Part shown: one piece after another, positions 47,445-64,000 of the stretch
Position numbering within the stretch: position 1 is the stretch's first letter
How the letters are laid out: each line of letters starts with the position of its first letter
Source of the DNA: Actinoplanes sichuanensis
GTDB taxonomy: Bacteria; Actinomycetota; Actinomycetes; Mycobacteriales; Micromonosporaceae
DNA: 64,000 nt
Reading direction: 5' to 3'
Assembly (NCBI RefSeq): GCF_033097365.1
Contig: NZ_AP028461.1
Coordinates: forward strand, 372,001 to 436,000
Program-made: the position numbers and the translations under genes
The notes under the pieces: model-generated
What the model was told of the DNA's origin: nothing
Databases searched by the model: none
The model's input: the letters and a program-made list of their open reading frames with translations, nothing else

Positions 47445-47522
47445 AGCCGGTCCTGACCGGGCCGAAGGCCGGTCCGCTCCAATGAAACACCCCTTTTGTC
47501 ACGGAAGATCATGAGGAGTGTC

Positions 47523-48644: not shown

Positions 48645-49748
48645 ATGAAACCGTCCCTCCGAGCCGCCTTCTCGGCCGCGGTCCTCGCGGTCGCGTTGGT
48701 GGTGTCACCCGCCCCCGCACAAGCCGCCTCCCTCACCATGCTGGGCGCCGACGTGTCGTCGCTGCAGCGCACGCTCGACCTCGGCGGCAAGTACTACAAC
48801 GCCTCGGGTGTCCAGGCCAACCCCTACGACATCCTGAAGACGGCCGGCGTCAACTACGCCCGGCTGCGTGTCTGGAACAACCCGGCCAGCGGTTACAACA
48901 ACAAGGCCAAGGTGCTCCAGCAGGCCGCGGCGATCAAGGCCAAGGGCCTGAAGCTGATGGTCGACTTCCACTACTCCGACACGTGGGCCGACCCGGGTAA
49001 GCAGTATCCCCCGGCCGCCTGGGCGTCCTACTCGCTCACCCAGTTGCAGACGGCCGTCTACAACTACACCTACGACGTCTGCACCAGCCTCAAGGCGGCC
49101 GGGCTCACCCCGGACAGCGTGCAGATCGGCAACGAGATCAACGTCGGCATGCTGTGGCCCAAGGGTCAGGTCGTGAACAGCAACTTCACCCCGCTGGCGT
49201 CGCTGCTGAAGCAGGGCTACAACGCGACGAAGGCCTGCAACAGCGGCACCCAGGTGATCATCCACGTGGCGGACGCGGACAGCATGACCAACATGCGGTG
49301 GTTCTACGACGGCATCAAGGCGGCCGGCGTGACCTGGGACATCACCGGCCTGTCGTACTACTGCATGTGGCACGGCACGCTCGCCAACCTGTACAACGTG
49401 ATCGTCGACGCCCGGACCCGTTACGGCAAGCCCGTGGTGATCGTCGAAACGGCGTACCAATTCACCACCGGAGACGCCGACAGCGAGAAGAACTCCATTC
49501 CGGGAACCGTTCTCTGCGACAACATCCCGGCCACTTCGGCGGGCCAGGCCCAGCAGTTCACCTGGGTCCAGAACACCGCCCGGAACGCGGGCGCGATCGG
49601 CGTCTTCTACTGGGAACCCACCTGGTACGCCATCAAGGGAAACGGCTGGGATCCGGCGAACATCAACGGCACCGGAGACGGCTGGGACAACATGGCGACG
49701 TTCGATTGGGGCGGCAAGGTCAACCCGTACATCAAATGGACCGCATGA
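48645..49748 (+). CDS. Secreted GH53 endo-beta-1,4-galactanase, copy 2
   Basis: A 367-residue paralogue of the preceding enzyme, starting 24 bases after its stop with AAAGGAG before the ATG. The signal peptide ends at AQA. Catalytic residues are E164 in QIGNEIN and E268 in VVIVETAYQ. Long blocks are identical in both copies, such as DFHYSDTWADPGKQ and LSYYCMWHGTL. Differences cluster in surface loops and near the end of the barrel, for example the DADSEKNS segment. The pair may split work between long chains and short or arabinose-decorated galactan. Confidence 0.92.
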   Translation: MKPSLRAAFSAAVLAVALVVSPAPAQAASLTMLGADVSSLQRTLDLGGKYYNASGVQANPYDILKTAGVNYARLRVWNNPASGYNNKAKVLQQAAAIKAKGLKLMVDFHYSDTWADPGKQYPPAAWASYSLTQLQTAVYNYTYDVCTSLKAAGLTPDSVQIGNEINVGMLWPKGQVVNSNFTPLASLLKQGYNATKACNSGTQVIIHVADADSMTNMRWFYDGIKAAGVTWDITGLSYYCMWHGTLANLYNVIVDARTRYGKPVVIVETAYQFTTGDADSEKNSIPGTVLCDNIPATSAGQAQQFTWVQNTARNAGAIGVFYWEPTWYAIKGNGWDPANINGTGDGWDNMATFDWGGKVNPYIKWTA

Positions 49749-50437: not shown

Positions 50438-50740
50438 GCCGAGAGCCTAAGCATCCCGGTCCAGTTCACCGCCCGCTCCGCCCTCGGCTGTCGCCGTGGC
50501 CGGGTAAGGGACGAAACCGCCGCGCGCCGGGCAGAACCGATCTCTTGCTGCTGTTAGGTGCGAACAGTCGCGGCTCGGTGAACATGACGAATGAGTCATA
50601 CATCAGCTGATGTATTTAAAAGGCGCAGGAAAAAGCCTTCAAAAAGGACATTGATGCTTGTCGAGTCGTCGCGGTGGGGGTGTACCGGCACCGTTAGATT
50701 CGCTCTCGATCTCACCGTCACGACCGGGAGCATTCACACG
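50438..50740. promoter_or_regulatory. AT-rich intergenic island with an 18-bp perfect palindrome
   Basis: The middle of this gap holds ATACATCAGCTGATGTAT (50598-50615), a perfect palindrome, preceded by ATGAC/GTCAT arms (50584-50599). It is followed by an unusually A-rich stretch with AAGGC/GCCTT arms (50620-50639). The palindrome is a strong candidate operator; the binder is unknown. TAGATT (50695-50700) is a possible -10 for the thioesterase gene. The first 140 bases show nothing I can name beyond the leaderless promoter of the preceding minus-strand gene. Confidence 0.55.
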
Positions 50741-51211
50741 ATGGACACGATCCAGCCGGCCACCGCCATGTACGAACGCGACATCACCTGCCGGACTCTC
50801 GGCATTCAGTTGGACGACCTCGGACCCGGGCGGGCCCGGATGCGGATGCGGGTCGCCGGCACCATGGCCAACGGGCACGGGACCGTTCACGGCGGGTACC
50901 TGTTCCTGCTGGCCGACGCGGCGTTCGCCTATGCCAGCAACAGCCACGGGCCGACCGCCGTCGCCCAGCACGCGCAGGTCACCTTTCTGCGGGCCGCGGC
51001 CGTCGACGACGAGTTGGTCGCCGAGGCGGTCGAGCGGGGGCGCGTCGGGCGGACCGGGGTGTACGACGTGACCGTGCGACGGGCAGCCGGCGAGGTGATC
51101 GCCGAATTCCGCGGCCAGAGCGTGATGCTGAGCAGCAACCAGAGTACGACGCCGGGAAGCGGCCAGAGCGTGATGTCGAGCGGCCGCCCAGTGAACGGGT
51201 CGGAACACTGA
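50741..51211 (+). CDS. PaaI-type hotdog thioesterase
   Basis: A 156-residue acyl-CoA thioesterase of the PaaI/4HBT family. The hotdog core reads ITCRTLGIQLDDLGPGRARM, NGHGTVHGGYLFLLADAAFA with the catalytic Asp, and a closing strand RTGVYDVTVRRAAGEVIAEF. The C-terminal 30 residues are an unusual Ser/Gly-rich tail in which GQSVM occurs twice, encoded by a repeated 17-base stretch. ATG 50741 starts the family domain; the frame is open further upstream through the palindrome but lacks a better start. No phenylacetate genes are near. Its stop is eight bases before the SARP gene, so it may belong to the biosynthetic cluster. Confidence 0.8.
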   Translation: MDTIQPATAMYERDITCRTLGIQLDDLGPGRARMRMRVAGTMANGHGTVHGGYLFLLADAAFAYASNSHGPTAVAQHAQVTFLRAAAVDDELVAEAVERGRVGRTGVYDVTVRRAAGEVIAEFRGQSVMLSSNQSTTPGSGQSVMSSGRPVNGSEH

Positions 51212-51219
51212 CCGGCCTC

Positions 51220-53736
51220 GTGGTGGAGATAGCGCTGCTCGGGCCGGTCGAGGTCTGGACGAACGGGAACCGCATCCCGCTCGCCCCACTGGAACGCAGC
51301 GTGCTGACGCTGCTCGCGCTCGCCGAGGGCACCGTCCTGTCGACCGAGCGGATCATCGAGAGCCTGTGGGCGCTCCGGCCTCCGGCGGCGCCGCGGGCCC
51401 GCGTACAGGGAATGATCTCGTCGTTGCGGCGGAAGATCGGTGACGCGCTGGTGACCCGTGACCCGGGCTATTACCTCGCGGTGCCGCCGGTCGCCTGTGA
51501 TCTGAAACGCTGTGAGGATCTGGCCCGGCAGGCCGCGCGGGCGGAGCCCGCCGAGGCCGCCGAAAAGCTTCGGCAGGCCTTGGCGCTCTGGCAGGGTGAG
51601 CCGCTCGGCGGGGTCGCCGTGCCCGGCGTCGATGCTGATCGGGTACGGCTGACCGAACTGCGGATCGCCCTGCTGGAGGACTGTTTCGAGGCGGAGTTGG
51701 CGCTCGGCGGCCACGCCGAACTGGTCCGGGAGCTGGTCACGGCGGTGGCCGAGCATCCGCTGCGGGAGCGGCTGACCGGGCAGTTGATGGTCGCGTTGTA
51801 CCGGTCCAACCGGCGGGCCGAGGCCCTGCTCGCCTACCAGGCGCTGCGCGAACGGCTCGCCGACGAGCTGGGCAGCGATCCGTGCGCCGACGTACGCGAA
51901 CTGCACGCCTCCATCCTGCGGGACGAGGACGCCGCGCCGGGTCGGCAGCCGACGGCCGAGCAGCGGTCGACGCCGAAGCCGCCGGGGACCGGGCAGCGGC
52001 CGGCGCAGATGCCGCCCGGGGTCGGACATTTCGCCGGTCGGGAGGCCGACCTGGCGACGTTGACCGCGGCACTTCCGGAGCCCGGTGCCGACCCGCGGGT
52101 CGTGCTGATCTCCGGTGCCGGCGGCCTGGGCAAGACGGCCCTGGCGGTGCGGTGGGCGCACCATGTCGCCGGCCGATTCCCCGACGGCCAGATCTTCGTC
52201 GACCTGCACGGCGCGAAGGACGCCGGGCTCCCTCCGGACGCGGCTGTCGGCGCGGCCCTGGCCGCTCTCGGAATGCCCGCCGACCGGCAACCGGCGGGTG
52301 TCGAGGAACGGGCCGCCCTGTTCCGGACCCGGCTCTACCACCAGCGCGTTCTGCTGGTCGCCGACGACGCGGGCACGGTGGCCCAACTGCTGCCCCTGGT
52401 CCCGCCGACCTCCGGCAGCCTGCTGGTGGTGACCAGCCGCAACCGGCTGACCGCGCTGGCCGCCCACCACGAGGTACGAACCCTGGCGCTGCGCCCCCTG
52501 TCCACGGCCGCCGCTCGTGACCTGCTGGGCGGCATCGTCGGCCCGGACCGTCTGGCCGGTCCGGGCGGGGCCGAGGTGGTCGACCTGTGTGGCGGCTGGC
52601 CCCTGACGTTGCGGCAGGCGGGCGCGACCCTGGCCGCCCGGTCCGCCCAGCCGCTGGCCTCGTTCGCCGACGAGCTACGCGAACGCGCTGACATCCTGAA
52701 CGTCGCCGACGATCCGAGAACCGTGCGTTCGGCGCTGGCGCAGGCCCGGATAGTGGTGGACCCGCCGGCGGGTCGGCTGTTCGATCAGCTGGGCGCGCTG
52801 CCGGCGAGTTCGGTACGCCTGGACCTGGCCGCCGCGGTGGCCGGCCTGACCCTGTCCCGGACGAGACGGCTGCTGGACGAGTTGATCTCGGCGAGCCTGA
52901 TGGTCGAGGCCGGCCCGGACCGCTACGGCTGGTACGACATGGTCCGCCGCTATGCCCGCCGCCGAGGCATCGGCATGAGCGACCGCGACGTGGCCGTCGA
53001 ACGGGCGATCCGCTGGTATCTGGCCACCATGGACCGGCTGGCCGACCCGGACTTCGCCCCCGAGCGGGCCGACCTGCCGATCCTGGCCCGCTGGGTGGCC
53101 CAGCGCCGAGACCCGCAGCTGACCTGGGATTTCGTCAGCCGGGCGTTCGCGGTGACCCCGGCGGTCGGGGTCGAGGCGTGCGAGTCGGCGCTGGCCGCCG
53201 CACACCGGCTGGGCGACCGACGGATCATCGGGGCCGCGCACACCCAGCTCGGCTCGGTGCTGCTGACCGACCCGGCCCGCGCCGACGACGCCGCAGCCCA
53301 CCTGCGTCGGGCCATCCAGCTGCTCGGCGCCGATCAGGAGGATCACGTCCGGATCGCCACGTTCGGGCTGGGTGCGTTGCTGGCCCGGCAGGGGCGTCCG
53401 GCCGAGGCGGGTTCGCTGTTGGAGCGGACGCTGGACCTGCTGGATCCGGGCCGCGAGCCGCTGGCGTCGACGATCGCCCTGTACGCCCACGCCGACCTGC
53501 TGGTCCGGGCAGGTTCGGCCGATCGTGGCCAGGAGCGGTTCGCGCAGGCGTTGATCCTGTGCGAGGCGGCCACCGGAACCAGGTTCAGCCGGGTCCGGCA
53601 GATTCTGGACGCGCACGTGGGCGCCAGGTTCGTGGCGTATCTGAGTGACGCCCTGGACGCGCCCCGGGTGAGCACCACCGACCGGCGGCTGGCCAGGAAC
53701 CTGTTCGGCTCCGGCCTCAGACCGGTTCCGCGCTGA
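51220..53736 (+). CDS. SARP-family pathway regulator with NB-ARC and TPR-like regions
   Basis: An 838-residue AfsR-type activator. Residues 1-95 form the winged OmpR-like DNA-binding domain (EIALLGPVEVWTNG, LLALAEGTVLSTERIIESLW, RVQGMISSLRRKIGD). The bacterial transcriptional activator domain (about 100-245) follows, with RLTELRIALLEDCFEAELAL and RERLADELGSDP. Next is an NB-ARC ATPase with P-loop ISGAGGLGKTALA (K305), LLVADDAG and LLVVTSRNR. Helical repeats near 640-810 resemble TPRs. Such proteins switch on antibiotic clusters by binding 11-bp-phased direct repeats. GTG 51220 or 51223 can start it. It is convergent with, and overlaps by 20 bases, the first ATP-grasp gene. Confidence 0.9.
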   Translation: MVEIALLGPVEVWTNGNRIPLAPLERSVLTLLALAEGTVLSTERIIESLWALRPPAAPRARVQGMISSLRRKIGDALVTRDPGYYLAVPPVACDLKRCEDLARQAARAEPAEAAEKLRQALALWQGEPLGGVAVPGVDADRVRLTELRIALLEDCFEAELALGGHAELVRELVTAVAEHPLRERLTGQLMVALYRSNRRAEALLAYQALRERLADELGSDPCADVRELHASILRDEDAAPGRQPTAEQRSTPKPPGTGQRPAQMPPGVGHFAGREADLATLTAALPEPGADPRVVLISGAGGLGKTALAVRWAHHVAGRFPDGQIFVDLHGAKDAGLPPDAAVGAALAALGMPADRQPAGVEERAALFRTRLYHQRVLLVADDAGTVAQLLPLVPPTSGSLLVVTSRNRLTALAAHHEVRTLALRPLSTAAARDLLGGIVGPDRLAGPGGAEVVDLCGGWPLTLRQAGATLAARSAQPLASFADELRERADILNVADDPRTVRSALAQARIVVDPPAGRLFDQLGALPASSVRLDLAAAVAGLTLSRTRRLLDELISASLMVEAGPDRYGWYDMVRRYARRRGIGMSDRDVAVERAIRWYLATMDRLADPDFAPERADLPILARWVAQRRDPQLTWDFVSRAFAVTPAVGVEACESALAAAHRLGDRRIIGAAHTQLGSVLLTDPARADDAAAHLRRAIQLLGADQEDHVRIATFGLGALLARQGRPAEAGSLLERTLDLLDPGREPLASTIALYAHADLLVRAGSADRGQERFAQALILCEAATGTRFSRVRQILDAHVGARFVAYLSDALDAPRVSTTDRRLARNLFGSGLRPVPR

Positions 53737-54907
53737 CCTGGAAGGCGGCGGCGGTGGCGGTGATCGCGGCCTCGACCGCGGCCGACGTCCGCCCGCGGAA
53801 TCGGAATCGGCCGCCGACATGCTCGTAGTAGGCGTCGGCGGCCGGCAGGATCTCACCCGGCCGGAGCAGCGCCTCGGCGTACGGCCCCGGGGTCCGGCCG
53901 GTCATCGACCGCACCGAGGTGATCCGGCAGGGTCGGCGGGCCGGCGCCGGAGCGAGCAGCCATCCGGCCACCTCGGTGAACGGCGGGACCCACGGGCGTG
54001 GTGCCCGCCCGAGGGCGATCTGGAAGGCCGCCTCCATCAGGTCGTATCCGTGTACCTCCCGCCACAGGAACGGGATCTCGGCGCCACCGACTCGGGCGCC
54101 CGCTTCCAGGAACGCGCACTCCCCGGTGGCCCGGTCGAGGAAGACCTCCAGATGGAAGGCGGTCGGCCGGTCCGACAGTGCGGCCAGGCAGCGTGCGGTG
54201 AACGTCCCGACGGCCTCGATCAGCGCCGGGTCGTCCTCCTCGACCGAACCGAGCAGGTCGCCGTCCCGGAAGCCGAGACACGTGTTCAGGTATCGGGACA
54301 CCCGGTACGGTCCGAGCGCCACCCCGTCGAACCAGCCGTCGACGTGGTGGATCGGTCGCGGATCGAACGACTGGGCCATCATCCCGGCCGGGTCGAGCCC
54401 GCGCAGCTCACCCGGGCCGCTCAACCGGAGCACCCCGGCGCTGGAGCTCCCACTGCGCGGTTTGACGATCACCGGCCAGCCGTACCGGTCACCGAAGGCC
54501 CGGACCGACGACGTCTCCCGGACCGTGGTCCAGGCCGGCACGGCCAGTCCGGCCGCGGCGACCCGCCCGCACATCTCGACCTTGTCCCGGTACGGCCGGA
54601 CCTGCTCCGGGGTCCATCCGGCGCAGCCCCACGCCTGCCGCAGCTGGGCGGCGACGAGCAGATCGTCCTCCTTGAGCGCGACGATCGCGTCCGGCGGCCC
54701 GAATTCGTGTGCCAGTTCCTTGACCCGCTCGGCCACCTGCGGCAGATCGTCGGTGGCGTCCACGAGCAGCACCGCGGCCGCCTCGGCAGGCACCGCCGAC
54801 GCCCCGACCCCGGTCGACACATAGGTGACGGTGTGCGCGTGATGGTCGAGGTACCGGTGGTACTCCGCATATCGGGCCCGCCACCGATGGATGACGACGA
54901 CGTGCAT
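53717..54907 (-). CDS. ATP-grasp ligase A
   Basis: A 396-residue ATP-grasp enzyme that should join a carboxylate to an amine through an acyl-phosphate. The N-terminal preATP domain is VVVIHRWRARYAEYHRYLDH. The ATP-grasp part has PYRDKVEMCGRVAAAGLAVPAW, WPVIVKPRSGSSSAGVLRL, FHLEVFLDRATGECAFLEAG and RVGGAEIPF; the last two hold Mg2+/ATP ligands. The stop of the neighbour and this start share one base (TGATG), so both are coupled. The C-terminal region after about 300 resembles the biotin-carboxylase-like lid of carnosine-synthase-type ligases. Substrates are unknown. Confidence 0.85.
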   Translation of the reverse strand: MHVVVIHRWRARYAEYHRYLDHHAHTVTYVSTGVGASAVPAEAAAVLLVDATDDLPQVAERVKELAHEFGPPDAIVALKEDDLLVAAQLRQAWGCAGWTPEQVRPYRDKVEMCGRVAAAGLAVPAWTTVRETSSVRAFGDRYGWPVIVKPRSGSSSAGVLRLSGPGELRGLDPAGMMAQSFDPRPIHHVDGWFDGVALGPYRVSRYLNTCLGFRDGDLLGSVEEDDPALIEAVGTFTARCLAALSDRPTAFHLEVFLDRATGECAFLEAGARVGGAEIPFLWREVHGYDLMEAAFQIALGRAPRPWVPPFTEVAGWLLAPAPARRPCRITSVRSMTGRTPGPYAEALLRPGEILPAADAYYEHVGGRFRFRGRTSAAVEAAITATAAAFQVSAEPV

Positions 54908-56163
54908 CAGGAGTCCTCGTCCAGCTCGTAGAACGACGGCCCGTCCAGGTAGCGGAACGTGCCGAAGTCCCGGTCCACGATCTCCTCGACCGGATGCATC
55001 AGATTGACGATCAGCGGCGTGCTCAGATCGTCGACGGTCCGCCGCAGCCGCCCGCCGGGTGACACCACCGGCCGGACGTCGTAGAGGCTTTCCAGACCTT
55101 CGATCAAACCCATCATCGGGTACGCCTTGAGCCGCGCCTCCCTCGTGGAGACGGCCCACGCGCTCACCACATGCTTGCGTACCTCGTAGTCGACCCCGGC
55201 GCGGGCCGCGAACCGGCGCGGACGCACATACGCGTCGACGATCCACTCCAGCTGCCCCTCACCGAGCGCCGGCTGGCAGAAGCCGGGCAGGTCCAGACCG
55301 GCCATCCGGGCGCCGACCTCGACCAGGCACGGCCCGTCCGGGGTCAGTTTGATCTCCAGGTGGGCGGCACCGAAGCGGATGCCGAGCGCGTCGAGGACGG
55401 CACACGCGTAGGGCACCAGCGCCTCCTGCACCGCGCCGTGCCGGGGCAGTAGCCGTACCCCGCAGGTCAGATCGGTGATGCCGTTGGCGGTGAGCTTCTC
55501 GTACTTCCAGATGTCGGTGACCTGGTGCCGGCCGTCGCAGCTGACCGTGTCGACGACGTATTCGCCGCCGGTCAGGTACTCCTGGGCGACCACCGCGTCG
55601 TTGCGGTGCGAGAAGATGTTCTCGCTGCCCAGGATCTTGCGGTAGGCGGCGACCGACTCCTCCGGGGTCGCGCAGAAGTGCACACCGTCACCGGCGGCGC
55701 TGCGGATCGGTTTCACCACGATCCGGCCGCCGAATCCGGCGTGCCAGCCTTCCAGCTGACCGGCGTCCTCGACGAGCAGCTGCCGGGTGGCCCGCAACCC
55801 GGCCGCCCGCAGCGTCTCGATCTGCACATATTTGTCCCGGCGGGCCACGCTCAGCGCGGTGCCGTTGTTCGGCAGCCCGAGCAGTTCGCCCAGCAGGTCG
55901 GCGAACTCGACACCCACCTCACCGCCGGCCACCACGGCGACCGGATCCCAGTCCTGGACGGCGGCCAGGGTGGCGTCCAGGTCACCGGTGTGCACGATGT
56001 TTCCGGCGTACGGGGACAGGTCGAACGCACCCTGGTAGACAAGCGGCGCCTCGGGGGTGCTCTGCACCCGGACCACCCGGTATCCGGCCTTGTGGAAGAC
56101 GGGGGCGAGACGCCGGGTCGGGGCGTACGCGTCGACCATCACGACGGTGCGGGAATCGCTCAT
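54907..56163 (-). CDS. ATP-grasp ligase B
   Basis: A 418-residue ATP-grasp enzyme, first gene of the minus-strand pair. It has VVMVDAYAPTRRLAPVFHKA, GGEVGVEFADLLGELLGLP and ARRDKYVQIETLRAAGLRAT. IVVKPIRSAAGDGVHFC forms the ATP-binding segment. VVAQEYLTGGEYVVDTVSCD and HLEIKLTPDGPCLVEVGARM carry metal-binding residues. This is the PF13535 (ATP-grasp_4) group that includes BtrJ, BacD-like and carnosine-synthase-like amino-acid ligases. Its start lies 27 bases from the first GGATCCG repeat, so it is a likely SARP target. The substrate pair is unknown. Confidence 0.85.
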   Translation of the reverse strand: MSDSRTVVMVDAYAPTRRLAPVFHKAGYRVVRVQSTPEAPLVYQGAFDLSPYAGNIVHTGDLDATLAAVQDWDPVAVVAGGEVGVEFADLLGELLGLPNNGTALSVARRDKYVQIETLRAAGLRATRQLLVEDAGQLEGWHAGFGGRIVVKPIRSAAGDGVHFCATPEESVAAYRKILGSENIFSHRNDAVVAQEYLTGGEYVVDTVSCDGRHQVTDIWKYEKLTANGITDLTCGVRLLPRHGAVQEALVPYACAVLDALGIRFGAAHLEIKLTPDGPCLVEVGARMAGLDLPGFCQPALGEGQLEWIVDAYVRPRRFAARAGVDYEVRKHVVSAWAVSTREARLKAYPMMGLIEGLESLYDVRPVVSPGGRLRRTVDDLSTPLIVNLMHPVEEIVDRDFGTFRYLDGPSFYELDEDS

Positions 56164-56189
56164 CACCGAACCGTCGCGATGGCCGCCAC

Positions 56190-56245
56190 GGATCCGCTGC
56201 AGATCCGCTGCACGCCGGACGTGTAGTGGATCCGTGGTGGATCCG
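56190..56245. promoter_or_regulatory. Candidate SARP binding repeats in the divergent promoter
   Basis: Four copies of a GGATCCG-type heptamer occur as two pairs, each with 11-base phasing: 56190 (GGATCCG) and 56201 (AGATCCG), then 56228 and 56239 (both GGATCCG). The first pair belongs to two copies of GATCCGCTGCA in tandem. SARP regulators bind direct repeats of heptamers at 11-bp spacing near the -35 region. The repeats lie between divergent ATP-grasp genes. Because GGATCC is its own complement, each pair can act in both directions. Confidence 0.6.
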
Positions 56246-56271
56246 AAGTGGCGGTCGCCAGGCTTCGGCCC

Positions 56272-57249
56272 ATGTTGCAGCGGATGTTGTGGATCTTCCC
56301 GGACCGGGAGTCGACCCGGACCGCGGCGCAGTGGAACGCCGCGTTCTGGAGCACCTATGCGGAGGTGGCCGACGAGCTGGGCCTGACTTGGGTACGGACC
56401 GCGCCGGAGGCGGTCACCGTGGACGCGACCGACCCGCGGGCGCCCCGGGTGTACGTCGACGGGGTTCCGGTCACGCCCGAGGACACCCTCTTCGTCACCT
56501 CGCCCTACACGTTGCCGTACCAGGCGGCGGACACCTTCAACCAGTTCACCCTGTACGCGGTGCTGGAGCAGGCCGGTTTCTACCTGCCGCACCCGCCGTG
56601 GCTGGCCGCGCTCGGCAACGACAAGATGGCCACCCTGCTGTTCCTGCGTGACTCGCCGATCCCGCCGATCCCGACGGTACGGGTGAGCGCCGGCCGTGAC
56701 CTGCTCTACGACGAGTTCCTTACCGCGTGCGAGCGGCTGACCTACCCGGCGATCGTGAAACCGGCCGGCTGGGCCGCGTCCCGGGGCATCAACCTGGCCC
56801 ACGACGCCCACGACGTGCGCGGACTGCTCAGCCTGGCGCAGGGCGGCGACACCACGCTGGTGCTGCAGCCCTACCTGGGCCGGGCGACCCGCGACTACCG
56901 GATCCACATGGTCGACGGGCGAGCGCACACCACGCTGGTCCGCATCCCCGGCGACGGAGCCCGCTACCCGCAGTACAGCACCGGGGCGAAGCTGCATTAC
57001 ACGTCGCTGCCCGAGGAACTGGCGGCCACCGTCGACTACTTCGCCAAGAAACTGCCGATGCCGTACTTCTGCGTCGACTTCCTGCACGACGGTGAACGGT
57101 TCTGGCTGTCCGAGGTGGAACCGGACGGTGCCATCATGTGCCCCGACCGCACCGACCCGGAGGTGGTCCGGCAGAACCGGGCGATCGTCCGGGACCGGTT
57201 CCTGGCCTACCGCGACTGGCACACCCGATTCCTCGGAGGTGCCCTGTGA
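56272..57249 (+). CDS. ATP-grasp ligase C (RimK/glutathione-synthetase-like)
   Basis: A 325-residue ATP-grasp protein, more distant from ligases A and B. The N-terminus LWIFPDRESTRTAAQWNAAF leads to LAALGNDKMATLLFLRDSPI, then YPAIVKPAGWAASRGINLAH, LVLQPYLGRATRDYRIHMVD and YFCVDFLHDGERFWLSEVEP. These fit the RimK/glutathione synthetase-type domain. ATG 56272 and ATG 56284 are both possible and no strong ribosome binding site is visible; GTG 56248 would run into the SARP repeats. It overlaps the next gene by GTGA. It heads the plus-strand biosynthetic operon. Confidence 0.82.
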   Translation: MLQRMLWIFPDRESTRTAAQWNAAFWSTYAEVADELGLTWVRTAPEAVTVDATDPRAPRVYVDGVPVTPEDTLFVTSPYTLPYQAADTFNQFTLYAVLEQAGFYLPHPPWLAALGNDKMATLLFLRDSPIPPIPTVRVSAGRDLLYDEFLTACERLTYPAIVKPAGWAASRGINLAHDAHDVRGLLSLAQGGDTTLVLQPYLGRATRDYRIHMVDGRAHTTLVRIPGDGARYPQYSTGAKLHYTSLPEELAATVDYFAKKLPMPYFCVDFLHDGERFWLSEVEPDGAIMCPDRTDPEVVRQNRAIVRDRFLAYRDWHTRFLGGAL

Positions 57250-58469
57250 CCGGCGACTTCTTCTCCTCCGCGGCACTGGCCCTGGAGACCGTGCGGGACA
57301 CCCTGGCCAAACTGCGCTCGGTGCCCGCACTGACCGACCGGTACGCCGACATCGTCGCCGTGGACAGCCTGGAGGACCTGATCCACGTGCCGGTGATGCG
57401 CAAGGACGAGCTCAACCTCGCCCTCGACCATCTCAAGCCGAAGGCCCAGCACGGCGCGACGTGGACGTTTCAGAGCGGCGGCAGCACCGGCTCCCCGAAA
57501 CTCGGTTACGCGCCGACCGGCCTCTACATGGCCGAGGTGTACGAGCAGTGGAAACCACTCGGACCCGACGACCTGTTCGTCAACGGCTGGGGCGCCGGCA
57601 AACTGTGGGGCGCCCACTACCTGATGGGCGCGTACGCCGACCTGACCGGCTGCACCGGCATCGGCCTGGGCGCGGTCAACCGCACCGAGTACGACGTGTG
57701 GCTGGAGTTCTTCGCCGCCCGCGGGGTCACCTCGATCGGCGGCACCCCGAGTGTGCTGCGCCCGATCATCGGCCGGGCCCGGGAGATCGGCATCAAGCTC
57801 CCCGACCTGCGGACCGTGCTGTGGCTGGGCGAGGCCTGGAACCCGGGACTGGACGAGGACCTGCCGGTGGTCGCCCCGCAGGCCCGCCGGTGGGGACTGT
57901 TCGGCAGCACCGAGACGTGGGTGGTGGGCACCAACACCCCGCAATGCGCCGACGACACCTGGCATCCGCTGCCGTCGCAGCTCGTGCACGTCGGCCCGGA
58001 CCAGCTGATCGACTTCACCTCGCTGAAGCCGCACGGCCTGAACCCGGTGCTGCGGTACCAGACCGGTGACGCGGGCGCGTGGGTGACCTGCACGTGCGGG
58101 GTGCCCGACCGGGCGCTGCGGGTGCTCGGCCGCCGCGACGGCGAGGTCAAGTTCCGTGGTCTGCTGCTCAACGCCGACGCCCTGCTGCGCGAGGTCGCGA
58201 CCGTGCCGGGCGTGCTGCAGGCGCAGCTGGTGCTCACCGAGTACCCGGCCCGCGGCAGCACGTGTGAGGTGCTGGTGGTGCCGGCCCGGGACACTCCGGA
58301 CGGACTCGCCGACCGGGTCCGCGACCACGTCCTCGGTTCGGCGTTCGGCGGCCCGAGCACCGCCTTCCACCGCGACCCGGAGGCCCTGGCGGTACGGGCC
58401 ACCGCCGCCCTGATCCACAACGAGCGCACCGGCAAGGTGTCCCCGCTCGTGCACCGGACCGCGACATGA
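57246..58469 (+). CDS. PaaK-like adenylate-forming enzyme
   Basis: A 407-residue member of the acyl-adenylate family nearest to phenylacetate-CoA ligase. The P-loop is TFQSGGSTGSPKLGY near residues 74-88. Other motifs are VNGWGAGKLWGAHYLM, GGTPSVLRPIIGRA, WLGEAWNPGLDEDL, WGLFGSTET and RYQTGDAGAWV, with the hinge GRRDGEVKFRGLLLNADAL. It activates a carboxylic acid as adenylate and passes it to CoA, a carrier or an amine. It starts with GTG overlapping the previous stop and ends overlapping the MFS gene. The acid is unknown; an aryl or short alkyl acid is common for the family. Confidence 0.82.
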   Translation: MTGDFFSSAALALETVRDTLAKLRSVPALTDRYADIVAVDSLEDLIHVPVMRKDELNLALDHLKPKAQHGATWTFQSGGSTGSPKLGYAPTGLYMAEVYEQWKPLGPDDLFVNGWGAGKLWGAHYLMGAYADLTGCTGIGLGAVNRTEYDVWLEFFAARGVTSIGGTPSVLRPIIGRAREIGIKLPDLRTVLWLGEAWNPGLDEDLPVVAPQARRWGLFGSTETWVVGTNTPQCADDTWHPLPSQLVHVGPDQLIDFTSLKPHGLNPVLRYQTGDAGAWVTCTCGVPDRALRVLGRRDGEVKFRGLLLNADALLREVATVPGVLQAQLVLTEYPARGSTCEVLVVPARDTPDGLADRVRDHVLGSAFGGPSTAFHRDPEALAVRATAALIHNERTGKVSPLVHRTAT

Positions 58470-59704
58470 GCCTGGGGCGGGAATTCAACAGGCTGTGGCT
58501 CGGCCAGAGCGTCAGCAACATCGGCGACCGGATCAACCTGTTCGTCGTCCCGACGGTGATGATCCTGCTGCTCGACGCGTCGGCGTTCCAGGTCGGCCTG
58601 GTCGGGATGGCCCAGTACCTGGCGATCCCGCTGCTCAGCCTGGCCGCCGGGGTGCTCGTCGACCGATGGGATCTGCGGTGGACGCTGATCTGGTGCGACC
58701 TGATCCGGGCGCTGGCGATCGTCACGATCCCGGTCGCCTGGTGGCTGGACGTGCTGTCGGTGCCGTTGATCTTCGTGGTCGTCGCGCTGGCCAACGCGAC
58801 GGCGGTGTTCTTCAACATCGGCTACACCGCGACCATCGCGGCGATCGTGCCGGACTCCGGGCGCGTCCAGGCCTACGCGAACCTCGAAGGCAGCCGCAGC
58901 GTCTCCGAGGTGGTCGGCCCGGCGATCGCCAGTGGCCTCTACCGCCTGTTCGGCGTGTGGTCGCTGCTGGTCGACGCGATCACCTTCGTCTTCTCGGCGA
59001 TCACGATCAAGAGCATGCGGCGGTACGGACAACGCCGGCTCCACCACGAGCCGATGTGGTCACGGCTGGTCGCGGGGGTGCGGCTGAACTGGGACGACCC
59101 GGTCCTGCGGGGCACCATCCTGGGGACCACGCTGCTCAACTGCGGTGGCCCGATCTTCGTGACGGTCCTGCCCATCCTCGCCTATCGGGGGCTCGGGTTG
59201 TCCGTACCCCAGCTGGGTCTGGTCATGTCGGTGGCCGCCGTGGCGGCCGTCGCCGGGGCGCTGCTCGCCCAGCGGGTCAGCCGGTTGATCGGCCCGGCCC
59301 GGATGATGCCCTGGTCGGTCTTCCTGCACTGCCTGGTCGGCCTCGGTGTCCTGGCCGCGCCCGCCCTGAACAGCGCGGTCGTCCTCGGTGTCACGCTGAG
59401 CCTCTACGGCCTGTTCATGGTCTGGTACAACGTCTCCACCGCGGCCGTCCGGCAGGCCCGGGTGCGCGCCGCCGACCAGGCCGTCTCACACGCCGCGTTC
59501 CGGACCGTGACCTGGGGTGTCATCCCGTTCGCGGCGCTGCTCGGCGGTGTCCTCGTCGAGCAGCTGACCCCGGCCCACGGGGTGCTCGACGCGGCCCGGA
59601 TCACCATGGTCGGCGGAACCCTGATCGGGGTGCTGTTCGCGTGGATCCCGATCGCGCCGACCCAGGCCCGCCTGGACCGGGAACGAGCGGCGGTGCCCGC
59701 ATGA
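58466..59704 (+). CDS. MFS exporter
   Basis: A 412-residue transporter with about 12 membrane helices. The N-terminus REFNRLWLGQSVSNIGDRIN and the loop LVDRWDLRWTLIWCDLIRAL match the enterobactin-exporter-like (EntS) MFS_3 group, and YTATIAAIVPDSGRVQAYAN is its central loop. It overlaps both neighbours by four bases. Placed in the middle of the biosynthetic operon, it is the likely exit route for the product and a possible self-resistance factor. Confidence 0.9.
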   Translation: MSLGREFNRLWLGQSVSNIGDRINLFVVPTVMILLLDASAFQVGLVGMAQYLAIPLLSLAAGVLVDRWDLRWTLIWCDLIRALAIVTIPVAWWLDVLSVPLIFVVVALANATAVFFNIGYTATIAAIVPDSGRVQAYANLEGSRSVSEVVGPAIASGLYRLFGVWSLLVDAITFVFSAITIKSMRRYGQRRLHHEPMWSRLVAGVRLNWDDPVLRGTILGTTLLNCGGPIFVTVLPILAYRGLGLSVPQLGLVMSVAAVAAVAGALLAQRVSRLIGPARMMPWSVFLHCLVGLGVLAAPALNSAVVLGVTLSLYGLFMVWYNVSTAAVRQARVRAADQAVSHAAFRTVTWGVIPFAALLGGVLVEQLTPAHGVLDAARITMVGGTLIGVLFAWIPIAPTQARLDRERAAVPA

Positions 59705-61254
59705 GCGCCGCCCGAAATCAAAGCCGGCTCTCGGGGCTGTCCCGCGGGCGCGGGGACAGCTCCGGCGACCAGCCGAGGGTGGTGCTGATCACCGGCTGCT
59801 CCTCCGGCATCGGCCGGGAGACGGCGGTCCTCGCGGCGCGGGCCGGGTTCACCACGATCGCCACCGCACGTGATCCCGGCCGCCTGGCCGGCGAGCCCTT
59901 CGAGATACGCCGGATGGACGTCACCGACGAACAGTCGATCGCCGACTGCCTGGCCGGCGTGATCGCCGATCACGGGCGACTGGACGCGCTGGTCAACAAC
60001 GCCGGACTGGCCAACACGTTCACCAGCGTGGAGACCGCCGGGATGGCGCGGTTCCGGGCCGGGTTCGAGGTCAACCTGTTCGGTGTCGTGGCGGTGACCC
60101 GGGCCGCGCTGCCGCACCTGCGGGCCACCGGTGGGCGGGTCGTCACGGTCGGCAGCACCCGGGGGCTGATCGGGCAGCCGTTCAACGAGGGCTATTCGGC
60201 GGCCAAGTTCGCGGTCGAGGGGTTCATGGAGAGCCTCGCACCGATGGCCGCGGCCACCGGAGTCCGGGTGGTGCTGGTCGAGCCCGGGCCGGTCCTCGGC
60301 ACCGCGTTCGGCGCGAACTCGGGTGTCACCCGGGAGTCGCTGCTCGCCGAGGCCGGGCCCTACGCCGACGCGCTCACCGACTATCTCGCTTGGGTGGTGC
60401 GGTCCGGGCATCCGGGCGCGCAGAACGGTCGTGAGGTCGCCGAGGTGCTGCTGCGGGCACTCACCGAGGAGGCACCGCCGTTGCGGATCATGACCAGTGA
60501 CTGGGGTTCGCGGTATGCCGCGACCAAGCTGGCCGACCCGTCCGGGGAAGCGGTGCAATCCATGACCCGGTCCTGGCTCCAGCCACGTCACCTGGATCTG
60601 CACCGGTCTGCCGTGGAACGCGGCATCGAGCTGGTCGACGCGATCGACGACGAGCAGTGGAGACAGCCGACACCGTGCGCGGAGTGGACGGTGGCATCGC
60701 TCGTCGAGCACATGACCAGGGAGAACCGTGGATTCGCCGCCGCCGCCCGGGGTGACCGGACGTCGGCCGCCGACTGGCACACGCCGCTCGGGGCGGACCT
60801 GCGGGCCGAACACGCGGCGTCCGCGCGCGACGTGATCGACGCCTTCGCGGGTGCGGGCGCGCTGTCGCGCACCCTGTGGCTGCCGACGATCCGGGACGGG
60901 ATCACCCTGCCGGCGCGGACAGCGCTCGGGTTCCACCTGCTCGACGCGGTCGTGCACGGCTGGGACGTGGCCGCGGCGACCGGTCGGCCGTTCGGCGTCG
61001 ACGACGAGACCCTGGCCGCGGTTCGGGCGGTCGCCGAGAACGACGTCCCGGACGGTCCCCGGCGGTACCGCCCGCAGGCGACGTTCGCGCCCGCTCGTCC
61101 GGCGGCCGACGATGCGCCGGAAATGGACCGGCTATTGGCCTTCCTAGGCCGCGACCCCGAGTTCCGCGCCTCGGGCTCGCCCCGACCTTCTGGCTCGCCC
61201 AACCCCTCGGGTCGGTCCGATTTGTCGGACATATCAGCTGAGAAGGGAGTGTGA
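59701..61254 (+). CDS. SDR oxidoreductase fused to a TIGR03086/MDMPI-type domain
   Basis: A 517-residue two-domain protein. Residues 25-285 are a classical short-chain dehydrogenase: TGCSSGIG (31-38), VNNAG, active-site Ser152 and Y165-S-A-A-K169. Residues about 298-485 form a DinB-like mycothiol-maleylpyruvate isomerase domain: LDLHRSAVERGIELVDAID, PTPCAEWTVASLVEHM (H337) and FHLLDAVVHGWDVAAATGRP (H412, H419), with likely metal ligands. The end is Pro/Ser/Gly-rich. The parts usually occur as separate proteins. The SDR half may oxidise or reduce a pathway intermediate; the second half may bind metal and mycothiol. Start ATGA overlaps the MFS stop. Confidence 0.8.
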   Translation: MSAARNQSRLSGLSRGRGDSSGDQPRVVLITGCSSGIGRETAVLAARAGFTTIATARDPGRLAGEPFEIRRMDVTDEQSIADCLAGVIADHGRLDALVNNAGLANTFTSVETAGMARFRAGFEVNLFGVVAVTRAALPHLRATGGRVVTVGSTRGLIGQPFNEGYSAAKFAVEGFMESLAPMAAATGVRVVLVEPGPVLGTAFGANSGVTRESLLAEAGPYADALTDYLAWVVRSGHPGAQNGREVAEVLLRALTEEAPPLRIMTSDWGSRYAATKLADPSGEAVQSMTRSWLQPRHLDLHRSAVERGIELVDAIDDEQWRQPTPCAEWTVASLVEHMTRENRGFAAAARGDRTSAADWHTPLGADLRAEHAASARDVIDAFAGAGALSRTLWLPTIRDGITLPARTALGFHLLDAVVHGWDVAAATGRPFGVDDETLAAVRAVAENDVPDGPRRYRPQATFAPARPAADDAPEMDRLLAFLGRDPEFRASGSPRPSGSPNPSGRSDLSDISAEKGV

Positions 61255-62573
61255 TGGGCGCGTCCGCCGTACTCGCCGAGTTTCTGGCCGCGGCCCGGGA
61301 GCACGCCGGCCGGGTCGCGATCAGGGACAACGGGGTCGAGATCAGCTACGCCGAGCTTGCCGGGCGGGTGATCCGCTACGCGGCCCGGCCGGTCGGCGGC
61401 GGCGTCCACACCCGGCACGACGCCGACACGGTGGTCGCGCTGTTCGGGACGTGGGCGGCCGGCCGCACCTGGTGCCCGGTCGATCCCGGCTTCCCGGCCG
61501 GGCGGCAGGCGACGATGGCCCGGGTCGCCGCCGAGCACGACCACCCGTCGACGGCGTATCTGCTGTTCACGTCCGGGTCGACCGGGGAGCCGAAACCGGT
61601 TGCCACCTCACATCGGGCGATCGGGTCGACCGTACCGTCGCTGCGGGTTCTCTTTGATCTTTCGCCTGATGATCGGGTGCTCCAGTTCGCGTCGCTGAAC
61701 TGGGACACCTGCTTCGAGGAGATCCTTCCGGCGCTGACCGGTGGGGCGTGTCTGGTGTTCGAGGCCGACGCGCATTCCGGGTCGTTCCCGCGGTTTCTGC
61801 GGATGGTCGCGCGGGAGCGGATCAGCGTGCTCGATCTGCCCACCGCGTTCTGGCACGAACTCGTCGGGCACCTGCGGGAAAGCGGCTCGGAGCTGCCGGA
61901 CTGCGTGCGGCTGACGATCATCGGCGGGGAGGCGGCCGCACCGGCGAAGGTCGCGCTCTGGCCGGTGGTGGGCGGCCGGGCACGGCTGCTCAACACCTAC
62001 GGCTGCACCGAGACCACGCTGATCACGCATGCCGTCGAGCTGTATGGGACCGAGGATCCGGTGCCGATCGGGCGGCCGCTGCCGCACGTGATCGAACGGC
62101 TCGATGACGCGGAGCTCCTGATCGGTGGTCCGGCGCTGGCCGACGGCTACCCGGGACATCCATCGGTCACCGCGCAACGGTTCGTGACGATCGGCGGGGA
62201 GCGGTTCTTCCGTACCGGAGATCGGGTTCTCACCGCGACCGACGGAGTCCGCACGCATCACGGGCGGGTCGACCGGGAGATCAAGATCCGTGGCATCCGG
62301 GTCGACCCGGCCGAGGTGGAGGCCCATCTCACCGGCCATCCGGCGGTGCGGGCGGCGTTCGTCACCGGGGTCACAGTCGCCGGGCGCACCGCACTGACCG
62401 CCTTTGTCGTGGCCGGCCGAGGCGAAACCGACCTGCCCGCCCGGATCACCACCCACCTGCGCGGCCTGGTCCCCGCGCATCTGGTTCCCAGTCGTATCCG
62501 CGTGGTCGACGAGCTCGCCTACACCGCGAGCGGCAAGGTCGACCGGCGCCTGAGCGAGGAGATGCATCGATGA
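61254..62573 (+). CDS. Stand-alone compact NRPS adenylation domain
   Basis: A 439-residue amino-acid adenylation enzyme. Core motifs are present: A1 ISYAEL, A2-like GTWAAGRTWCPVD, A3 LLFTSGSTGEPKPV (about 103-116), A5 NTYGCTETT, A7 FRTGDRV, A8 GRVDREIKIRGIRVDPAEVE and A10 ASGKVDRRL with the catalytic Lys. D151 in NWDTCFEEI corresponds to the Asp that binds the alpha-amino group, so an alpha-amino acid is likely; an acidic residue follows in the pocket. The segment between A2 and A3 is far shorter than usual, placing the P-loop near residue 105 instead of about 190. ATG 61254 follows GGGAG and shares a base with the previous stop. It should load the carrier encoded next. Confidence 0.85.
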   Translation: MGASAVLAEFLAAAREHAGRVAIRDNGVEISYAELAGRVIRYAARPVGGGVHTRHDADTVVALFGTWAAGRTWCPVDPGFPAGRQATMARVAAEHDHPSTAYLLFTSGSTGEPKPVATSHRAIGSTVPSLRVLFDLSPDDRVLQFASLNWDTCFEEILPALTGGACLVFEADAHSGSFPRFLRMVARERISVLDLPTAFWHELVGHLRESGSELPDCVRLTIIGGEAAAPAKVALWPVVGGRARLLNTYGCTETTLITHAVELYGTEDPVPIGRPLPHVIERLDDAELLIGGPALADGYPGHPSVTAQRFVTIGGERFFRTGDRVLTATDGVRTHHGRVDREIKIRGIRVDPAEVEAHLTGHPAVRAAFVTGVTVAGRTALTAFVVAGRGETDLPARITTHLRGLVPAHLVPSRIRVVDELAYTASGKVDRRLSEEMHR

Positions 62574-62896
62574 ACGTCCACCAGGCGACCGCCCTGTTCC
62601 GGCGGGTGCTGGAGAACCCGGAGGTCACCGCCGAATCCGACTTCTTCGACGCGGGCGGCGACTCGCTGCTGGCCACCCGGGTGCTCAGCGCCGTCGCCCG
62701 CGACCACGGGGTCGAGCTGACCTTCGAGGACTTCCTGCTGGCCCCGACCCCGGCCACGCTGGCCGGCGCGGTTTCGGCCGGCGCCGTCTCCGGTGGTGCG
62801 GTTTCGGGCGGCGCGGTTCCGACCGGTGCCGTTTCCGGTGGCGCGGTTTCGGCCGGTGCGGTTTCGGACGGTGCCGTTTCCGGTGGTCCGCGATGA
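62570..62896 (+). CDS. Peptidyl carrier protein with pentapeptide-repeat tail
   Basis: A 108-residue carrier protein. The phosphopantetheine site is DFFDAGGDSLLATRVLS with Ser32. The carrier fold ends near residue 66. The remaining 40 residues are an imperfect pentapeptide array (SGGAV, SAGAV, PTGAV, SDGAV) encoded by 15-base repeats at about 62761-62890. It overlaps both neighbours by ATGA. It probably holds the amino acid activated by the adjacent A domain while the flavin oxidase or other enzymes act on it. The tail is unusual for a carrier and may be a flexible linker or docking region. Confidence 0.85.
   Translation: MNVHQATALFRRVLENPEVTAESDFFDAGGDSLLATRVLSAVARDHGVELTFEDFLLAPTPATLAGAVSAGAVSGGAVSGGAVPTGAVSGGAVSAGAVSDGAVSGGPR
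62761..62890 (+). repeat. 15-bp imperfect tandem repeat at the 3' end of the carrier gene
   Basis: About eight units of the type GGYGGYGCGGTTTCG (with changes at third codon positions and in the S/P/T codons) run to the stop codon and keep the frame. The units encode (S/A/T)(G/D)GAV(S/P). They suggest slippage expansion inside the gene. Confidence 0.75.
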
Positions 62897-64000
62897 GGGT
62901 GCTGGTGGTCGGTGCCGGGCTCGGCGGGCTGACCGCGGCCACCGACCTGGACGCCGCCGGGGTCGATGTGGTCGTGCTGGAGGCCCGGGACCGGGTCGGT
63001 GGCCGTACCCACGGCATCGAGGTGGCGTCCGGCACGTGGGCCGACGCGGGTGCCGCCTATCTCGGAGACCGGCACACCGAGCTGCACAAACTGATGGCCG
63101 GTCTGGGACTGTCGGCGACACCCACGGCGATGCGCGGTGGCAGCCGGTTCGCTCTCGGGCACGGGGAGAAGACGCGGGCCGGACGGTTCCCGCCGCTCAA
63201 CGCGGTCGCCCTGGGCGAGATGTTCGATCGGCTCTACGACCTGGTCGACGCGGTGCGCCCGGACGCGCCCTGGCTCACCCCGGACGCCGCCGCACTCGAC
63301 TCCACCACCGCCGCCGCTTGGGCGGCCGCGAACCTGCGCCACCCGGACGCCCGGCTGTTCTTCCCGTTGTTCCTCGGCGAGATGATGGCCGCCGATCCGG
63401 CCGCGATCTCGGTGCTGCACATGGCCCTCTACCTGCGTGCGGGCGGCGGCATCCGATACCTCAACGCGTTCGACGGCGGCGCCCAGCAGGACCGGGTGCT
63501 CGGCGGCGCGCATCAGGTGGCCGAGCGGCTCGCCGGACAGCTCGGTGACCGGGTGTGGCTCGGACATCCGGTCCACGCCGTCGAGCAGGACGGCGGCGGG
63601 GTGTCCGTGCGGTCCGGCGATCGGTGCCTGACCGGCGACGCCGTGATCGTGGCGGTGCCTCCGCTGTTGGCCCAGGCCATCGACTTCCGGCCCGGACTGC
63701 CGGCGCCCCGGGCCACCGCCGCGACCGGGCGGGGCTGCGCGGTGAAGGTGCAACTCGTCTACCCGCGGGCCGCCTGGCACGAGCAGGGTCTGTCCGGCTG
63801 GTCGGTGAGCGCCACCGGCCCGTTGCTGTCGACCGTGGACGACTCACCGCCGGGTGGCGCCGGGGTGCTGACCGGGTTCGTGACCGGCGCCGAGGCGTAC
63901 CGCTTCGCCGGACTGGACCCGGTCGCCCGGGAAGCCGAGGTGCTGTCCCAGGTCGGCGAGCTGTTCCCGCGGCTCGGCCGGCCGGTCGCGGTGCACATCA
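62893..64000 (+). CDS. Flavin amine oxidase, partial at the right edge
   Basis: The first 369 residues of an FAD-dependent oxidase. The start RVLVVGAGLGGLTAATDLDA holds the GxGxxG FAD loop, and VVVLEARDRVGGRTHG is the second dinucleotide motif of the monoamine oxidase family. GGAHQVAERLAGQLGDRVWL and AVIVAVPPLLAQAIDF are further family features. It should oxidise an amine or amino acid to an imine, making H2O2. Its start overlaps the carrier gene, so a carrier-bound aminoacyl substrate is possible. The C-terminal FAD site lies outside the window. Confidence 0.85.
   Translation, partial: MRVLVVGAGLGGLTAATDLDAAGVDVVVLEARDRVGGRTHGIEVASGTWADAGAAYLGDRHTELHKLMAGLGLSATPTAMRGGSRFALGHGEKTRAGRFPPLNAVALGEMFDRLYDLVDAVRPDAPWLTPDAAALDSTTAAAWAAANLRHPDARLFFPLFLGEMMAADPAAISVLHMALYLRAGGGIRYLNAFDGGAQQDRVLGGAHQVAERLAGQLGDRVWLGHPVHAVEQDGGGVSVRSGDRCLTGDAVIVAVPPLLAQAIDFRPGLPAPRATAATGRGCAVKVQLVYPRAAWHEQGLSGWSVSATGPLLSTVDDSPPGGAGVLTGFVTGAEAYRFAGLDPVAREAEVLSQVGELFPRLGRPVAVHI

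Follow-up and report, generated by a model that had tools for sequence, protein, structure and literature searches.

Introduction

Adenylate-forming enzymes of the CreM/AvaA6/Tri17 group are ATP-dependent and use nitrite (PMC11705231; this and the other papers are cited from parts of their text). CreM, AvaA6, CmaA6 and Tri17 come from the cremeomycin, avenalumic acid (ava), p-coumaric acid (cma) and triacsin clusters, whose natural substrates are given in the parts cited as aryl amines and a hydrazone (PMC11705231, PMC10777205). Here we describe a biosynthetic gene cluster of Actinoplanes sichuanensis in which a gene of the same nitrite-activating family sits instead with a relative of lysine 2,3-aminomutase (KamA), an adenylation (A) domain with its carrier protein, and an amine oxidase. 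The stretch of DNA analysed, called the window below, comprises 64,000 nucleotides (bases 372001-436000) from a 12.14-Mb genome in a single contig. Three relatives of this locus share with the cremeomycin-type clusters the neighbouring nitrite pathway, whereas the window's own locus is without CreE and CreD.

In the streptothricin and viomycin pathways, beta-lysine is supplied by a lysine 2,3-aminomutase and loaded by an A domain whose code reads DTED.GT..K. The cluster described here differs from them by an added amine oxidase and CreM-type enzyme, and has ATP-grasp and PaaK-like ligases in place of non-ribosomal peptide synthetase (NRPS) condensation. Two of its ATP-grasp enzymes, A and B, share the branch of the dapdiamide A synthase DdaF, the bacilysin ligase BacD and other L-amino acid ligases; enzyme B, however, reaches 204 bits with the DdaF model, against a cut-off of 840, and is by that model not DdaF. 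The negamycin cluster of Kitasatospora purpeofusca has beta-lysine, ATP-grasp and N–N chemistry in common with ours, and the same strain carries a relative of our locus. Negamycin is also the nearest case in the literature, joining beta-lysine with another N–N enzyme, the heme enzyme NegJ (PMC12154649). Among the titles and abstracts listed in our literature search, whose scope left subscription journals mostly outside, none brings a CreM-type enzyme or a nitrosuccinate lyase together with lysine 2,3-aminomutase or beta-lysine. The original prediction, made from the letters of the window, knew no characterised cluster with its gene set, and our comparison, made without MIBiG, likewise found none.

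A conserved cluster that continues beyond the window

The cluster is real and conserved, falls into two modules and is cut off by the window; it is apparently uncharacterised. It probably makes a beta-lysine-derived unit with the help of nitrite chemistry and joins this unit into an amide for export. Every gene named in the original prediction is present at its position in Pfam, NCBIfam and profile searches. The seven plus-strand genes from 56272, described there as overlapping by one to four bases, each overlap the next by 4 bases, or by 1 base for the A domain if its start is the ATG at 61254. Extending the sequence to the right, a check proposed with the prediction, revealed that the gene set had been incomplete: the plus-strand operon has two further genes, joined on by the same 4-base overlaps, and reaches 67213 (positions past 64000 continue the same coordinates). 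Both lie wholly past the window end on the plus strand: 64215-65903 encodes a CreM/AvaA6/Tri17-type adenylate-forming enzyme, and 65900-67213 a radical-SAM relative of lysine 2,3-aminomutase, KamA. With the genes that reveal the chemistry sitting just beyond its edge, the window alone misled.

Related loci were taken from one scan of named genomes with an alignment of the PaaK-like protein, giving 56 loci biased towards the PaaK-like gene, in which presence of a gene was scored by tblastn at identity thresholds that we set (loci and genomes are referred to by L and G numbers). The closest named genome with the cluster is Actinoplanes philippinensis. The A domain, carrier, oxidase and CreM-type genes occur together in 46 of the 56 loci, in this order and on one strand in 46/46, an arrangement that is not due to chance. 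In 45 loci these four are accompanied by ATP-grasp ligase C and the PaaK-like, MFS and SDR genes, and in 39 of them also by KamA. The remaining 11 loci are two distant ones in which no threshold was passed (L065 and L066), six cut by contig ends (L012, L015, L024, L037, L045 and L063) and three with the ligase part only (L032, L055 and L060). The genomes of the last three carry the other part on another contig (L100-L102), and because of this separation we divide the cluster into two modules: module 1, made up of the A domain, carrier, amine oxidase, CreM-type enzyme and KamA, often with a thioesterase, SARP or MDMPI domain, and module 2, made up of ATP-grasp C, the PaaK-like enzyme, the MFS protein and the SDR together with ATP-grasp A/B or a second PaaK-like enzyme.

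Loci recruited by the PaaK-like protein make a less fair test than 250 genomes drawn from the family. With a CreM-type protein of at least 69% identity and a PaaK-like protein of at least 55% as markers, 17 genomes had the CreM-type gene and 16 the PaaK-like gene, which in one incomplete genome is a fragment. The two markers coincide in 15 genomes, 3 have a single one (CreM-type in G103 and G123, PaaK-like in G072) and the other 232 have neither (Fisher p 5e-21, uncorrected for kinship). Scattering of the genes among relatives had been named as an observation that would speak against a cluster; they stay together. Six distant CreM-type matches (42-48%) and two distant PaaK-like ones (34-38%) were left out of these counts, and since the named loci and the draw overlap, the two sets of counts are not to be added.

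Module 1 also occurs in other settings. In G654 the KamA, CreM-type, CreE, CreD, A-domain, carrier, amine oxidase, thioesterase and MDMPI genes lie together; the neighbours, among them DnaJ and a 16S rRNA methyltransferase, were read by eye as ordinary or housekeeping genes, and the 40 kb read contain no assembly-line gene. G123 and G411 belong to different families, and in each a large gene comes after module 1, encoding 2168 amino acids in G123 (L129:5727-12233) and 2149 in G411 (L131/L132, at about 18.7-25.2 kb of the joined 40 kb). The G123 gene matches type I polyketide synthase models and the G411 gene was judged alike by eye. An NRPS beside module 1 in L102 was set aside as probably unrelated.

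The substrate of module 1

The prediction from the window had one amino acid loaded by an A–carrier pair beside an amine oxidase, and the genes for these are present on the plus strand: a short stand-alone A domain (61251..62573; AMP-binding 146 bits), a peptidyl carrier protein with an Ala/Gly/Val/Ser-rich repeat tail (62570..62896; PP-binding 51 bits) and a flavin amine oxidase resembling monoamine oxidase (MAO) and putrescine oxidase (62893..64218, with the window ending at 64000; Amino_oxidase 240 bits). Read at motif positions placed by eye, the A-domain code is DTEDIGTLIK in the window and DTED(I/V)GT(L/M/Q)(I/V)K in 45/47 aligned sequences, the fourth residue being N in the other two. 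It is close to DTEDVGTMVK, presumably the beta-lysine code. Given this near-match and the neighbouring KamA gene, the substrate is most naturally read as beta-lysine, which is probable.

The KamA protein has lys_2_3_AblA as its best family (163 bits), and its only match in the PDB is the L-lysine 2,3-aminomutase 2a5h. Read against 2a5h, the three Cys of the CxxxCxxC motif, an Arg, two Asp and a Lys are kept in 43/43 sequences, although the lysine that binds pyridoxal phosphate is off by one residue in the ungapped alignment; the Arg and the two Asp are presumably the lysine-binding residues of the aminomutase. The phosphopantetheine Ser of the carrier is kept in 47/47 sequences, and the Cys attached to the flavin (FAD), a Tyr and a Lys of the amine oxidase in 47/48. 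The amine oxidase is closest to monoamine, cyclohexylamine and putrescine oxidases.

Two features of the pair were seen by eye or on reading the proteins. The A domain has 439 amino acids in the window and in A. philippinensis (L011), against 456-580 in the other 45 loci read, and the missing part lies before motif A3. The C-terminal tail of the carrier consists of repeated Ala-Val-Ser-Gly-Gly-like units, so that the conserved carrier domain makes up the first two thirds only.

The CreM-type enzyme and its link to nitrite-making genes

The AvaA6 model matches the CreM-type protein with 338 bits, against 162 for the next model. Four PDB sequences match it along the full length, at 280, 273, 250 and 250 bits, followed by one at 92 bits; 8TF7 and 9BQ0, which belong to these four, are Tri17 (PMC11705231). 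The ANL motifs checked are kept in 48/48 sequences, including the A5 Glu, which is taken to correspond to CreM E352, a residue named in the review cited above (PMC11705231).

In three lineages the CreM-type gene directly precedes a CreE/CreD-like pair: Nocardioides (L043/L128), G123 (L103) and G654. Such a pair is the aspartate–nitrosuccinate route to nitrite. The order in G123 is CreM-type, FAD/NAD(P)-binding CreE-like protein, CreD-like lyase, then KamA and MDMPI, and the lyase gives 581 bits with the nitrosuccinate lyase model against 380 with the next. Its partner is read as CreE from its position and its similarity to a plasmid protein of Streptomyces sp. NBC_01022. Between the three lineages the CreE-like proteins are 59-60% and the CreD-like proteins 60-66% identical, and each shares 52-58% identity with its counterpart in the plasmid cluster of NBC_01022 (L138), where a 41% identical CreM-type relative lies one gene upstream of the homologous pair. 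L139 has the same arrangement, by annotation only. In the plasmid collection the relatives found all lie below 60% identity.

The CreM-type protein of the window is 69-74% identical to the three nitrite-linked ones and, of the cluster proteins, is conserved best in those loci that are more distant. A tree of 63 sequences has G654 branching first and G123 with G411 next, with L043 inside the crown at a weakly supported fork. Since G654 and then G123/G411 branch first, the linkage to nitrite genes looks ancestral, most crown loci now being without linked genes. The six distant CreM-type matches (42-48%) from the family draw fit in part: a CreD match above 400 bits lies within 30 kb in G043, G243 and G250 and on another contig in G192, and none accompanies the second copy in G051 or the match in G124. 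A seventh distant match, G504 from a class-level draw, adjoins a CreE/CreD pair.

At the place taken elsewhere by CreE/CreD, directly behind the CreM-type gene, three loci have a DUF3050 gene (L104:13009-13794, L030:13485-14282 and L050:8131-8913), and in a fourth such a gene stands behind KamA (L019:13306-14088). Pfam, run on the L104 copy only, gives a DUF3050 match of 326 bits and a weak heme-oxygenase-like match under its cut-off. The protein is possibly another N-oxidation enzyme or nitrite source.

Ligases, exporter and putative finishing enzymes

The original prediction had described the cluster by three ATP-grasp ligases and a minimal NRPS module. All three are present: A (53717..54907) and B (54907..56163) on the minus strand, C (56272..57249) on the plus strand. 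C occurs in 54/56 loci; A is found in 5/56 and B in 6/56, namely in Actinoplanes, Amorphoplanes, Couchioplanes (B only), Phytomonospora, Stackebrandtia and Actinorhabdospora, and a set of three such ligases is therefore not defining for the pathway. A second PaaK-like ligase replaces A/B in 42/56 loci, and 8/56 have neither. ATP-grasp enzymes of the L-amino acid ligase type, also part of the prediction, are supported by our searches for A and B. A profile of 6 homologues of A matches the L-amino acid ligase 4wd3 at 1.9e-15 and BacD at 1e-4. B, a PRK07206/DdaF-like L-amino acid ligase with an ATP-grasp_4 domain, scores 326 bits with PRK07206, above the cut-off of 302, and 206 bits with the L-amino acid ligase 30vh. 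C is RimK/LysX-like (rimK_fam 43 bits); a profile of 33 homologues matches RimK, biotin carboxylase, D-Ala-D-Ala ligase (Ddl) and LysX at about 2e-5 to 1e-3. Neither A nor C has a Pfam match at E<=0.001, their identification coming from NCBIfam and profile searches.

Behind C on the plus strand follow the PaaK-like adenylate-forming enzyme (57246..58469; AMP-binding 35 bits), whose homologues at E<=0.001 number 391 in 8000 scored candidates, the MFS protein (58466..59704; MFS_1 95 bits; in 53/56 loci), a predicted exporter as had been proposed, and an SDR fused to an MDMPI/TIGR03086 metal-binding domain (59701..61254; adh_short, MDMPI_N). An MDMPI match without SDR adjoins module 1 in L102, L103, G411 and G654. 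At the left end of the cluster, a PaaI-type hotdog thioesterase (50741..51211, plus strand; Pfam 4HBT 47 bits) belongs to the set: 42/56 related loci have a homologue, which in a few cases lies several kb away from the core. Its open reading frame opens at 50591, and the ATG at 50741 agrees with the homologues.

The proposed pathway and its alternatives

From gene content, conservation, catalytic residues, direct repeats and the CreE/CreD-like linkage in three relatives, which are observed, we infer the reactions, their order, the use of nitrite in the Actinoplanes genome and the product. KamA would convert L-lysine to beta-lysine, which the A domain would load onto the carrier protein. The amine oxidase would then oxidise one amine, most likely the C6 amine with closure to a pyrroline-acetyl thioester, since beta-lysine is a substituted putrescine and putrescine oxidases are among the nearest relatives of the oxidase. 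The CreM-type enzyme would activate nitrite with ATP and nitrosate a nitrogen of the oxidised beta-lysine unit, giving an N–N bonded, N-nitroso or diazo intermediate, or one that loses N2. That Tri17 is reported to accept pyrrolidines and piperidines (PMC11705231) speaks for such a step. The hotdog thioesterase and the MDMPI domain may release or finish the unit, the RimK-like ATP-grasp and PaaK-like enzymes, here with the two enzymes of the L-amino acid ligase type, would couple amino acids or amines to the acid, the SDR may adjust the oxidation level, and the MFS protein would export the product. Of the small amide peptide pictured in the original prediction, the ligase and amide part stands; the probable beta-lysine substrate and the nitrite chemistry had been missed.

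Several observations weigh against this pathway. The CreM-type enzyme misses the AvaA6 cut-off of 975 and is a relative of AvaA6, not AvaA6 itself; KamA does not reach the lys_2_3_AblA cut-off of 525; the CreD-like lyase of G123 stays below the nitrosuccinate lyase cut-off of 650; and the CreE-like protein of G123 has no NCBIfam match, and in Pfam only that of a general FAD-NAD(P)-binding domain (NAD_binding_9). Seven loci with the rest of module 1 have no KamA in the DNA covered. Six of the seven were searched genome-wide and have a KamA paralogue, 64-65% identical, elsewhere in the genome. This proves little, because the Actinoplanes genome has such a paralogue (65% identical, G000:C1:1159955-1161289) besides the cluster KamA; a paralogue (61-66%, one in two pieces) was likewise found in 8/9 other genomes searched, G008 having the module-1 copy only. 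A CreE/CreD-like pair stands beside module 1 in only 3 of the 53 module-1 loci examined (46 named loci plus L100-L104, G411 and G654). The best nitrosuccinate lyase match of the Actinoplanes genome, at 278 bits, is not above the cut-off, and none of the 15 two-module genomes of the family draw has a CreD match at E<=1e-80, while a CreD match above 400 bits occurs in 12 of the 250 genomes. Finally, the CreM-type enzyme may have changed its function in crown lineages.

Such a change is the core of an alternative that we consider doubtful, though not to be dismissed: that after loss of CreE/CreD the crown CreM-type enzymes, the window's included, became ordinary acyl- or aminoacyl-adenylating ligases, so that the product would be an oxidised beta-lysine unit in amide bonds, made without nitrite. 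The scarcity of CreD in the genomes and of linked pairs among the loci just described favours it, as does the wealth of ligases in module 2. It is at odds with the ANL motifs and the 69-74% identity that the window's protein shares with the nitrite-linked ones, with this protein's standing as the best conserved of the cluster in distant loci, and with the position of nitrite-linked L043 beside unlinked loci in the crown, at its weakly supported fork. Nitrite genes are also missing from 72/134 ava-type diazotase clusters (PMC10777205): their presence in the same cluster as a CreM/AvaA6/Tri17 enzyme is usual, not obligatory. Among the 48 genomes with the cluster (49/56 loci), 12 have such a CreD (above 400 bits) somewhere, one of these being the linked Nocardioides gene. 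Nitrite in the Actinoplanes genome could come from elsewhere, for example from nitrate reduction; two NarG nitrate reductases score above the cut-off there. Diazotisation might, on the other hand, serve only to remove an amine as with AvaA6/AvaA7, N2 leaving and the product having no N–N bond. This is a sub-case of the nitrite-dependent pathway, and its probability overlaps with that of the latter; we think it unlikely. The closest curated model is the avenalumate diazotase AvaA6, the cluster has an SDR and the AvaA6/AvaA7 pathway removes the nitrogen, yet AvaA6 and CmaA6 act on aryl amines in the sources cited (PMC11705231, PMC10777205).

Kinship with a known beta-lysine antibiotic pathway, that of streptothricin, viomycin or negamycin, is very improbable. 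KamA with an A–carrier pair follows the logic of streptothricin and viomycin, and the negamycin producer K. purpeofusca NRRL B-1817 carries locus L052; amine oxidase, CreM-type and PaaK-like genes are, however, not known to be part of those pathways. The open reading frames flanking L052 were read as unrelated, and neither a heme enzyme nor an N-methyltransferase gene was recognised there by eye, no KinJ/NegJ sequence search having been made; the negamycin reading was put aside on these grounds. Hydrazone pathways of the azaserine, triacsin and dob kind were also set aside, no cluster protein being annotated as the lysine N-oxygenase or methionyl-tRNA synthetase (MetRS)/cupin enzyme of the dob pathway (PMC13061610).

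Within the nitrite-dependent pathway, we put forward a more specific proposal tentatively, as a possibility short of probable: that a widespread, apparently undescribed actinobacterial cassette nitrosates carrier-bound, oxidised beta-lysine to an N–N heterocycle, for example tetrahydropyridazine- or pyrazole-acetic acid, a block used alone in G654, beside a polyketide synthase in G123 and G411, and in amide-ligase pathways in the window and most relatives. The nitrite-dependent pathway itself points to a new kind of natural product. If that pathway is true, enzymatic nitrite activation by CreM-type enzymes would extend to an aliphatic, carrier-bound beta-amino acid, a cluster family that dozens of actinobacterial species carry and that has no known product would be given a name, and G654 would offer a compact cluster small enough for reconstitution.

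Probable regulation by the SARP, and flanking genes

Direct repeats spaced by 11 bp in the target promoter are typical of SARPs. The cluster contains a SARP/NB-ARC transcriptional activator (51220..53736, plus strand; BTAD 138 bits, NB-ARC, Trans_reg_C), with a SARP of at least 38% identity in 21/56 loci, and the 108-bp gap between the divergent ligase genes (56164-56271) holds operator-like direct repeats (56189..56246), two pairs of GATCCG with an 11-bp period at 56191/56202 and 56229/56240. These are the only two 11-bp-spaced pairs among the 51 plus-strand GATCCG of the window, and the other strand has none; at least two exact 7-mer repeats at 11-bp spacing occur in 3/983 stretches of 130 bp from the window. 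The activator in the cluster and the paired repeats in the divergent promoter gap support SARP control, as had been predicted, with the repeats as putative operator.

Part of the relatives have similar pairs, one mismatch being allowed: L011-L014 carry them in the corresponding gap, L016 between ATP-grasp C and the PaaK-like gene, L032 ahead of ATP-grasp C, and L020, L027, L050, L056 and L104 in the stretch from the SARP to the A domain. SARP-type repeats stand before both modules in L043. Against SARP control, the count gives no such pairs for the gap of L017 and L018 (a different word forms an exact 11-bp repeat there in L018), and the Kitasatospora, Streptomyces and Nonomuraea loci except L058 have no repeat pairs outside the mapped cluster genes. 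Of the 51 pairs found over 63 loci 16 lie inside mapped genes, the near-palindromic word counting some sites on both strands.

Past the aminomutase gene, with a 4-base overlap, lies a TRAP-type DctM gene (67210-69312), and behind it a gene read by eye as one for a TAXI-type binding protein (69352-70341). Membership of the DctM gene in the pathway was rejected and the cluster end placed at 67213, because only A. philippinensis (L011) among the 56 loci has the transporter; some loci end earlier. On the left flank stand two tandem, similar secreted glycoside-hydrolase-like genes (47496-48620 and 48645-49748), which look GH53-type by eye; they are preceded by what were read, again by eye, as genes for a LacI-type regulator and a sugar-ABC permease. 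The glycoside-hydrolase pair is unrelated to the cluster, yet it is retained beside it in A. philippinensis.

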